Assembly (NCBI GenBank): GCA_023622055.1
Contig: JAMNZY010000091.1
Coordinates: forward strand, 1-33,184
DNA from: Bacillota bacterium
GTDB taxonomy: Bacteria > Bacillota > Thermosediminibacteria > Thermosediminibacterales > Tepidanaerobacteraceae
Reading direction: 5' to 3'
DNA: 33,184 bases
The notes beneath the pieces are model-generated. The model made no database searches. It saw nothing but the letters and a program-made list of their open reading frames with translations, and was not told the origin of the DNA. The position numbers were made by a program, and so were the translations under genes. Each line of letters starts with the position of its first letter. Position 1 is the stretch's first letter. Positions 6,167-8,740 of this stretch are shown one piece after another.

Positions 6167-7480
6167 GTGGACAAGGAACAAATAAAACAACGGGTATCAA
6201 AAGCTATTGATGAGCATCGGGATGAGATTATAGAGATAGGCGAACAAATTTTTAACAATCCGGAACTTGGCTATAAAGAGCACAAGACTTCTGCTTTAGT
6301 TAAAGAAGTATTTAAAAAATTGGGGCTGTCTTATGAAGAAAACCTGGCTGTTACTGGAGTTAAGGCTTTGGCAAAAGGAAAAAGCAGCGATATAAAAGTT
6401 GCCATTATGGGAGAGCTGGATGCAGTAGTAAGTCCCATGCACCCTTGCGCCGATCCTAATACAGGAGCTGCCCATGCATGTGGTCATAATGCTCAAATTG
6501 CCAATATGTTGGGAGCTGCCATGGGCCTTATTTTAGGAGATGTTTTGGACAAGCTCCATGGCGATGTGGTATTTATGGCAGTTCCTGCAGAAGAGTATGT
6601 GGAACTGGAGTATAGGGAAAAACTTAGAAACGAAGGAAAAATTAAGTTTTTCGGTGGCAAACAAGAATTTATCAGAATTGGTGCTTTTGATGATATAGAT
6701 ATGGCTATGATGGTCCACTCTAGTGGAGGAGTAGAGGAAAGAAAAGCTTTTATATCAGGTGGTAGCACAGGATTTATCGGTAAAACCGTAAGGTATAAGG
6801 GCAAAGAGGCCCATGCAGGTGCAGAACCCCATGAAGGTATAAATGCCCTAAATGCTGCCATGTTGGGCCTAATGGCAACCCATGTGCAAAGGGAAACCTT
6901 TAGAGATGAAGACCAAATTAGGGTCCATCCCATTATCACTAAGGGTGGCGACCTGGTGAATATAGTCCCTGCTGATGTGAGAATGGAGACATATGTCAGG
7001 GGAAGGACCATAGATGCAGTAGTCAGTGCCAATGAAAAGGTCAACAGAGCTTTAAAAGCAGGGGCTTATGCGGTGGGGGCTGAAGTTGAGATAAACGAAA
7101 TTCCAGGTTATATGCCTTTAGAGCAGGACAAAATCCTAAGCCAGTTATTTGCTGATAATATCCAGGCCTTTATTGGCAAGGAAAATATTGTAGAAGGTGT
7201 TGACCTGACAGGTTCCACCGACGCAGGTGATGTAAGTCTTATCATGCCTACGCTACATCCCACAGTTGGTGGTTTTTCTGGCAATGCTCACAGCAAGGAT
7301 TTCAAAATAGCAGATCTCGAAATGGCTTACATAATCCCTGCAAAAGTAATGGCCCTTACTGTTGTAGATTTGCTCTTTGATGAAGCCAAATTGTCCAAAG
7401 AGATAAAATCAAAGTTTAAACCAAGTTTTTCCAAAGAAAGCTATCTCAAATTTTGGGATGAGCTTATAAATAAAAAATAA
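6167..7480 (+). CDS. M20 family amidohydrolase (AbgB/PM20D2-like)
   Basis: This cytosolic di-metal amidohydrolase of about 437 residues should cleave an amide bond of an N-acyl amino acid, aminobenzoyl-glutamate-like compound or dipeptide. Visible metal-site motifs are GELDAV (82-87), HACGHN (103-108), PAEE (near 138), the AHAG..PHEG dimerisation/insert motif, and STDAGDVS with a C-terminal NAHSKDF. CGHN and STDxGDVS, instead of CGHD and SEDF, point to the AbgB/PM20D2 branch over the hippuricase branch; that is from family knowledge and recall. The GTG at 6167 has AAGGGGAG seven bases upstream, so the longer ORF-track start is rejected. Two membrane-protein genes follow 13 bases later in the same operon. 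They probably import the substrate, although the substrate cannot be read from sequence. Confidence 0.85.
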   Translation: MDKEQIKQRVSKAIDEHRDEIIEIGEQIFNNPELGYKEHKTSALVKEVFKKLGLSYEENLAVTGVKALAKGKSSDIKVAIMGELDAVVSPMHPCADPNTGAAHACGHNAQIANMLGAAMGLILGDVLDKLHGDVVFMAVPAEEYVELEYREKLRNEGKIKFFGGKQEFIRIGAFDDIDMAMMVHSSGGVEERKAFISGGSTGFIGKTVRYKGKEAHAGAEPHEGINALNAAMLGLMATHVQRETFRDEDQIRVHPIITKGGDLVNIVPADVRMETYVRGRTIDAVVSANEKVNRALKAGAYAVGAEVEINEIPGYMPLEQDKILSQLFADNIQAFIGKENIVEGVDLTGSTDAGDVSLIMPTLHPTVGGFSGNAHSKDFKIADLEMAYIIPAKVMALTVVDLLFDEAKLSKEIKSKFKPSFSKESYLKFWDELINKK

Positions 7481-7493
7481 AGGGGGATAAAAA

Positions 7494-8291
7494 ATGTCGG
7501 AAGAAAAGCGGTATCTTAAGCTACACCTTATAGTACTAGTACTTGTGGTGATAGCGGAACTCATTGGAACCAAAAGTTATAAGGTGGGGCCTGGAACAAT
7601 AGTACTACTTCCAATGCTATTTGCTCTTTTACTGGGGCTATTGACAGGACCAAAATTCCTCAAAATTGTTGACATGGAAGATATGAATGCTGCAGAGGAT
7701 TTGATTACTATTTCAGTTTTGCTGTTGATGGCCAAATACGGCACCAACATTGGACCCACATTGCCTCTTATTATAAGATCAGGGCCTGCACTCATACTAC
7801 AGGAATTTGGTAATCTGGGAACAATACTCCTCGGCATGCCTTTTGCACTGTTGCTTGGTTTAAGGCGTGAGGCCATAGGAGCAACTTTTTCCATTGCCCG
7901 AGAGCCCAATATTGCTATTATTTCAGATATGTATGGTCTTGACACTCCTGAAGGAAGAGGGGTTATGGGAGTATATGTTGCCGGTACTGTTTTTGGTTCC
8001 ATATTTTTTGGCCTTTTTGCAGGCTTTGCAGCTACAACCTTGCCATTTCATCCATACGCCTTGGCCATGGCAAGTGGTGTAGGCAGTGCCAGCATGATGA
8101 GTGCTGCAGTTGGAGCTTTAGTTGAGATATTCCCAAATATGGCGGAAGAGATTACGGCACTTGGTGCTGCAAGTAATTTGGCCTCTGGTGCTGATGGTGT
8201 TTACATGTCAATTTTCATGGCTCTGCCCATGTGTGAGTGGATATACAGGAAGGTAATGGGAGACCGCGCTGAGGAGGTTACAAAGGGATGA
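7494..8291 (+). CDS. DUF3100 family multi-pass membrane protein
   Basis: This is a 265-residue integral membrane protein with roughly seven hydrophobic segments; charged residues cluster at the ends and in short loops. It matches my recollection of DUF3100, an uncharacterised family. Notable features are a Gly/Ser/Ala-rich small-residue stretch (ASGVGSASMMSAAVGA, near residue 200) in the style of the unwound core helices of elevator-type transporters, and a second one (GAASNLASGADG) close to the C-terminus. A strong ribosome site AGGGGG precedes the ATG. Its stop overlaps the next gene's start by 4 bases (ATGA). Position between an amidohydrolase and a second small membrane protein suggests one half of a heteromeric importer. 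Transport is inference. Confidence 0.72.
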   Translation: MSEEKRYLKLHLIVLVLVVIAELIGTKSYKVGPGTIVLLPMLFALLLGLLTGPKFLKIVDMEDMNAAEDLITISVLLLMAKYGTNIGPTLPLIIRSGPALILQEFGNLGTILLGMPFALLLGLRREAIGATFSIAREPNIAIISDMYGLDTPEGRGVMGVYVAGTVFGSIFFGLFAGFAATTLPFHPYALAMASGVGSASMMSAAVGALVEIFPNMAEEITALGAASNLASGADGVYMSIFMALPMCEWIYRKVMGDRAEEVTKG

Positions 8292-8740
8292 AACTGTCGC
8301 TTAAAGACCCTATTTTAATAACAGTTGTAGTTGCTTTATTGACACTGGTAGGCAATTTTGTGGGTTATAAAATCGATCCTATAACTGCCTTTCCGGGAAT
8401 GCTCATTCTATTTTTGATAGTAATAGTAGGTCTATGGATAACCAAAGTAATGCCAGGGAACCTACCGGCGGTAGTATATGTATCCCTTTTAGGCATTGTT
8501 CTTACAATGCCCTGGTTCCCCTTGGGTGAAAAAGTGGCAGAACTCACATCACAAGTGAACTTTTTGGCCCTTACTACACCTATTTTAGGTTTTGCTGGTA
8601 TTTCCTTGGGTAAAAACTTGGATTCTTTTAAACAAAATGGTCTCAAAATATTTGTAGTGGCTATCTTTGTTTTTATCGGTACTTATATAGGTTCTGCAAT
8701 AATAGCCCAAGTTGTATTGAAACTTACCGGCCAAATTTAG
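8288..8740 (+). CDS. small membrane protein, putative partner of the DUF3100 protein
   Basis: This is a 150-residue protein with about four to five hydrophobic segments and no signal peptide or recognised domain. The segment ILGFAGISLGKNLDSF followed by a long hydrophobic helix is reminiscent of one repeat of secondary transporters with a glycine-rich core. I do not recognise the family with confidence. Its ATG overlaps the stop of the DUF3100 gene (ATGA) and GAGGAGG lies ten bases upstream, so the two are translationally coupled and probably made in fixed ratio. A strong terminator follows, closing the three-gene operon. It may be the second half of a split transporter. Confidence 0.65.
   Translation: MKLSLKDPILITVVVALLTLVGNFVGYKIDPITAFPGMLILFLIVIVGLWITKVMPGNLPAVVYVSLLGIVLTMPWFPLGEKVAELTSQVNFLALTTPILGFAGISLGKNLDSFKQNGLKIFVVAIFVFIGTYIGSAIIAQVVLKLTGQI

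Follow-up and report, generated by a model that had tools for sequence, protein, structure and literature searches.

The CPA/AT superfamily of elevator transporters includes Na+/H+ exchangers. Its members combine a scaffold with a core that contains two helices of the broken or re-entrant type, and some are split into two chains, i.e. LrgA (four helices) plus LrgB (six helices, two re-entrant) and LysA plus LysB; natural LrgA/LrgB fusions are known in plants (PMC8396727, PMC8562792). In E. coli, the p-aminobenzoyl-glutamate hydrolase is composed of AbgA and AbgB (PMC5082436). Here we describe a three-gene unit from a member of the Tepidanaerobacteraceae (Bacillota; assembly GCA_023622055.1, contig JAMNZY010000091.1, positions 1 to 33,184, this whole stretch of 33,184 nucleotides being termed the window), which encodes an M20-family metal amidohydrolase, a membrane protein of the DUF3100 family and a second membrane protein of 150 amino acids (aa), termed P150. 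Sequence comparison and structure modelling favour an import-and-hydrolyse role of this unit over the alternatives: DUF3100 and P150 probably form a two-subunit secondary transporter of the CPA/AT type that imports an amide, which would then be cleaved by the adjoining cytoplasmic M20 enzyme.

DUF3100 (7494-8291, + strand, ATG at 7494, 265 aa) and P150 (8288-8740, + strand, about four transmembrane (TM) helices) are the putative larger and smaller subunit of this transporter, the former assigned by its Pfam match, alignments, AlphaFold and hhalign, the latter by synteny, fusions and profile matches. DUF3100 matches PF11299 at 3e-100 with 334.9 bits (cut-off 27) over profile positions 1-234 of 235, a family annotated solely as of unknown function, whereas P150 matched no family in Pfam or NCBIfam. 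A literature search for DUF3100 found no paper mentioning the family, and a term search of a CPA/AT analysis (PMC8562792) did not find it mentioned either; the transporter half is thus apparently undescribed, and no function is recorded for either membrane family in Pfam, NCBIfam or the literature search, just as the preliminary description of this locus had assumed. Co-occurrence is complete in a set of 94 loci taken from public genomes and plasmids, the P150 gene following that of DUF3100 immediately on its 3' side in 91 cases and being fused to it in the remaining three. Three further fusions lie beyond this set, and the six single-chain proteins (from Psychrobacter, Arthrobacter, Klebsiella, Comamonadaceae, Agrobacterium leguminum and Variovorax) go back to two independent events in a tree of DUF3100 and P150. 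For a joint model we used a locus (L047) in which both genes are in-frame across a stop codon, with the stop read as Gln and 145 related sequences. The joined chain of 424 residues folds confidently in AlphaFold (mean predicted local distance difference test (pLDDT) 89.6, predicted template modelling score (pTM) 0.87), the DUF3100 protein of the window alone reaching a pLDDT of 85.1 and a pTM of 0.79 with a shallower alignment. The suggestion that the two membrane proteins make up one transporter has therefore held as far as the single unit is concerned, by virtue of co-occurrence, fusions and the joined fold, and its transport part is conditional. That DUF3100 and P150 would be two halves of one transporter is well supported by sequence and modelling.

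The family occurs in bacteria and archaea, DUF3100 being encoded even by the genetic model archaeon Haloferax volcanii, and 12 of 150 genomes sampled evenly across the phylum contain it. Viral contigs, scanned twice with the DUF3100 protein and its alignment, contained no relatives. At one locus (L119, 1466-2339 of G140:C39) DUF3100 lies in two overlapping frames next to an intact P150, reflecting either a pseudogene or a sequencing error.

The import-and-hydrolyse role is suggested by the genomic company of the pair. A strong M20D gene is located within 3 kb of DUF3100 in 68 of the 94 loci, on the same strand in all but one of these (67 of 68), and as the source genome contains just five M20 matches in 1.9 Mb this linkage is far above chance. 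The association of DUF3100, its partner and a CGHN-type M20 enzyme extends across Clostridia, where the preliminary description would have looked for it, and well beyond. A C-N-bond hydrolase adjoins the pair in all 12 DUF3100 genomes of the even sample, namely an M20 enzyme in ten (once on the opposite strand) and a TRZ/ATZ-type amidohydrolase, which belongs to a superfamily unrelated to M20 and is encoded immediately 3' of P150, in two. Altogether, the partners comprise HmrA-side M20 enzymes, YxeP-side M20 aminoacylases, carbamoylase-type M20 enzymes, the DoeB/AstE type (e.g. the DoeB-like deacylase of the Sulfitobacter locus) and the TRZ/ATZ type, and on the DUF3100 tree the partner type changes about 19 times as compared to 55 times with shuffled labels. 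As most partners cleave an amide or a related C-N bond, the likeliest substrates in our view are N-acyl (or N-carbamoyl) amino acids together with small dipeptides, a class that may vary between clades, and as the partner enzyme is exchangeable, a fixed role in aminobenzoyl-glutamate utilization is unlikely.

We propose that DUF3100 and P150 assemble as a two-subunit elevator transporter with an architecture similar to LrgB/LrgA and split LysO, each chain supplying one related repeat and DUF3100 adding the core with its two broken helices. Driven by an ion gradient, the transporter would take up a small anionic amide (e.g. an N-acyl amino acid or small dipeptide), from which the cytoplasmic M20 enzyme of the same unit would release an acid along with an amino acid that the cell can use. 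Transport as such, its direction, its ion coupling and its substrate class are what we infer here. The wider proposal, i.e. that DUF3100-P150 is an undescribed split CPA/AT family with one repeat per chain that serves the uptake of N-acyl amino acids or small dipeptides and combines with exchangeable hydrolases of unrelated superfamilies, has about even chances in our view; provisionally, the split variant would be new, the superfamily itself being already known and containing split members. If true, a widespread family of unknown function, present also in archaea and on enterobacterial plasmids, would gain a function class along with a partner that is absent from family databases, a third split architecture would be added to the CPA/AT superfamily, and an overlooked bacterial scavenging route would emerge for N-acylated amino acids, which are products of microbes and hosts.

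The pair might instead be a two-subunit exchanger of precursor and product, or an exporter of the hydrolase product (the amino acid or the acyl acid), although we consider this unlikely. LysO, the best profile match (with P150, P = 2.6e-6), is named as a family of lysine exporters, and some loci lacking a hydrolase retain a β-hydroxyacid dehydrogenase and an aldehyde dehydrogenase, which join many proteobacterial and some Bacillus clusters and whose PDB matches were too unspecific to point to a substrate. CPA/AT relatives also include an Asp:Ala exchanger (PMC8396727). However, the partners are degradative enzymes with different folds that act on the same type of bond, which suits a shared incoming substrate better than an outgoing product, and 2HCT/CitS, another match, is an importer.

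It is rather improbable that the pair carries an unmodified amino acid or a hydroxy acid, e.g. serine or threonine, and that the hydrolase is just a frequent, secondary catabolic neighbor. Such a role would fit the threonine ammonia-lyase gene just upstream in the window (4761-5978), the serine or threonine ammonia-lyases near DUF3100 in Klebsiella, Agrobacterium leguminum and Sulfitobacter, the TdcA-annotated LysR regulators in enterobacteria, and the about 14 of 80 loci from named genomes that have no M20 gene within 3 kb. Yet the ammonia-lyase gene of the window is linked loosely, ending 188 bases before the M20 start codon (GTG), and every pair of the even sample has a C-N hydrolase next to it.

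The placement of the pair in the CPA/AT elevator-transporter superfamily is provisional, as the similarities are at twilight level, and it relies on profile comparisons and the model. Using hhalign, we compared alignments of DUF3100 and P150 from 113 loci with those of GltS, 2HCT, CPA, AbgT, MFS, LrgA, LrgB and LysO from genomes. Apart from LysO, P150 matches the N-terminal half of DUF3100 (P = 2e-4), LrgA (3e-4, 110 columns), the second repeat of 2HCT (6e-4) and CPA (7e-4); the N-terminal half of DUF3100 matches LysA (2e-4), and DUF3100 matches the large part of LysO (1e-3) and CPA (1.4e-3). All controls with reversed sequences gave 0.01 or weaker, and accepted CPA/AT members score between 1e-8 and 0.07 against each other in the same set-up. 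As the N-terminal half of DUF3100 resembles one repeat unit and P150 the second, the simplest reading is that each protein carries one repeat of a CPA/AT-type transporter. When DUF3100 is modelled jointly with P150, two broken helices (residues 125-129/135-145 and 186-193/198-211 in L047 numbering; add one for the window protein) appear in its C-terminal half, and the most conserved motifs of the family are located on them. The conserved residues of this half include R125/E126/R136/E137 and GxGSxSM, and E104, R136, E137, G195, G197, S198, S200 and M201 are invariant in DUF3100, even if bacteria are compared with an archaeon. E104, R136 and E137 may thus have functional roles. A Foldseek search of the PDB with the joined chain returned SLC9C1, CitS and NhaP on top (probability 0.89-0.99, CitS 0.99). 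With DUF3100 alone Foldseek found no match, and a Foldseek search against viral proteins gave weak MFS-like noise only. The comparison of the DUF3100 and P150 profiles with the sequences of solved structures yielded nothing but noise.

Several observations speak against a CPA/AT importer coupled to a hydrolase. DUF3100 scores P = 2e-3 with the unrelated MFS family, so that lone values near 1e-3 are no proof, and with LrgB it shows no match (P = 0.08). The Foldseek TM-scores are just 0.22-0.30, i.e. below the usual same-fold level, and the joint placement of the two proteins originates from a covalently joined chain with a stop codon read as a residue. Moreover, M20 enzymes of the window type are often located away from DUF3100, and some Bacillales pairs (Halobacillus, Pseudalkalibacillus) have no hydrolase nearby. 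Still, we doubt that the membrane proteins are no CPA/AT-type transporter and the weak matches a generic membrane-protein resemblance, as the low TM-scores, the MFS value and the lack of a solved structure among the sequence matches might suggest, because P150 matches LysO, LrgA, 2HCT and CPA but neither MFS nor AbgT (P about 0.2), the reversed controls fail and accepted clan members score similarly.

The M20 enzyme (6167-7480, + strand, 437 aa, GTG start at 6167) matches PF01546 (1.6e-10) and TIGR01891 (191.5 bits, cut-off 153.75) and keeps the metal-site motifs CGHN (residue 105), AEE (141), His184 and HSKDF (375). The CGHN motif and an STDxGDVS motif, here STDAGDVS at residue 350, had already been noticed at first inspection and taken as signs of the AbgB/PM20D2 branch, an assignment that has to be revised. 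The nearest solved relatives are PM20D2, an Xaa-Arg dipeptidase (E = 7e-29), and HmrA (3.5e-26), AbgB-type structures being more distant, and in the tree the enzyme groups with DUF3100-linked enzymes of Bartonella, Haladaptatus and Leuconostoc in a clade of its own, beside but outside the HmrA/PM20D2/AbgB cluster (distances 2.67 to HmrA, 2.89 to PM20D2 and 3.20 to AbgB). It is thus no AbgB orthologue, and its identification as AbgB was rejected. An exclusive tie of this clade to DUF3100 was also rejected, many copies lying in unrelated loci. At one of these (L294, 2084-6381) genes of a TRAP transporter, encoding DctP and two proteins of four and nine TM, lie directly downstream of the M20 gene, which by analogy is how an exchangeable importer-plus-hydrolase module might be expected to look, another type of transporter taking the place of DUF3100-P150. 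At another (L278, 2182-7814) a window-type M20 gene lies between electron-transfer flavoprotein genes and a gene of the ornithine-cyclodeaminase family, accompanied by a second M20 gene, possibly an amino-acid degradation cluster.

The three genes are tightly arranged, as originally described, with 13 bases between M20 and DUF3100 and an ATGA overlap between DUF3100 and P150. The GTG start is preceded by a ribosome-binding-like AAGGGGAG (6152-6159, + strand, from direct reading of the sequence), and the unit ends with an intrinsic-terminator-like hairpin (8766-8803, + strand; -23.2 kcal/mol, z = -3.95, none of 200 shuffles equally stable), which was missed by a simple terminator scan because of a bulge and confirms the strong terminator proposed before. 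The promoter candidate proposed with it is weakly supported: 11 consensus matches were counted as compared to 7.6 +/- 3.1 in shuffled sequences, which is not clearly more than expected by chance. The genome is Tepidanaerobacter-like, its DUF3100 protein sharing 92% identity with the homologue of Tepidanaerobacter sp. GT38. The threonine ammonia-lyase gene upstream of the M20 gene (TIGR01127) lies on the same strand, and the recurrence of serine/threonine ammonia-lyases near DUF3100 in other bacteria may hint at the amino acid that is released. Elsewhere in the window, 38-1276 encodes a protein of the DUF362 type that scores below the threshold with the Npun_F2552 family, and two open reading frames, 14176-14601 (141 aa) and 10353-10877 (174 aa, resembling a membrane protein), have no Pfam match at E 1e-5; a search of the window for RNA families and tRNAs found none. 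Plasmids from E. coli, Salmonella and Hafnia (L011, L012, L105), one of them a conjugative F-type plasmid, also carry DUF3100-P150-M20 units together with a LysR regulator annotated as TdcA, and in the Salmonella record 'enterotoxin A family protein' is the annotation of a gene a few kb from the unit.

Compared with known systems, the unit resembles AbgT with AbgA/AbgB, which in E. coli take up and cleave p-aminobenzoyl-glutamate, in that a transporter would adjoin an M20 amide hydrolase. AbgT, however, is a single chain from a family unrelated to DUF3100 and P150: homology was rejected (hhalign P about 0.2 for each protein), as was an AbgAB-T system, the unit having one M20 gene and no AbgT. 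The preliminary description regarded AbgT as replaced by DUF3100 and its partner, but another contig of the source genome (G000:C66:4989-7667) carries a full-length AbgT with its own YxeP/AbgA-like M20 gene, so this is no simple replacement. The PM20D2 and HmrA enzymes share the metal-site motifs with the M20 enzyme of the window, which nevertheless forms a separate clade. With 2HCT (CitS), the pair has in common that CitS is among the top Foldseek families of the joined chain and that P150 matches the second 2HCT repeat, whereas 2HCT is a single chain of 11 TM plus two re-entrant helices that handles hydroxycarboxylates, with a TM-score of 0.3. LysO/Lys_export, the best profile match, frequently occurs in Bacillota as two chains of about 100 and 200 aa, but DUF3100 and P150 each align only in part, and sizes and order differ. 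LrgA/LrgB (CidA/CidB), a transporter of the CPA/AT type to which DUF3100-P150 is provisionally assigned, is likewise split, here into a small 4-TM chain and a larger chain with two re-entrant helices. In contrast to LrgA/LrgB, where the small chain comes first, the large one precedes the small one in DUF3100-P150, similarity between DUF3100 and LrgB is undetectable, neither window protein matches Pfam LrgA/LrgB, and only DUF3100-P150 is linked to amide hydrolases.
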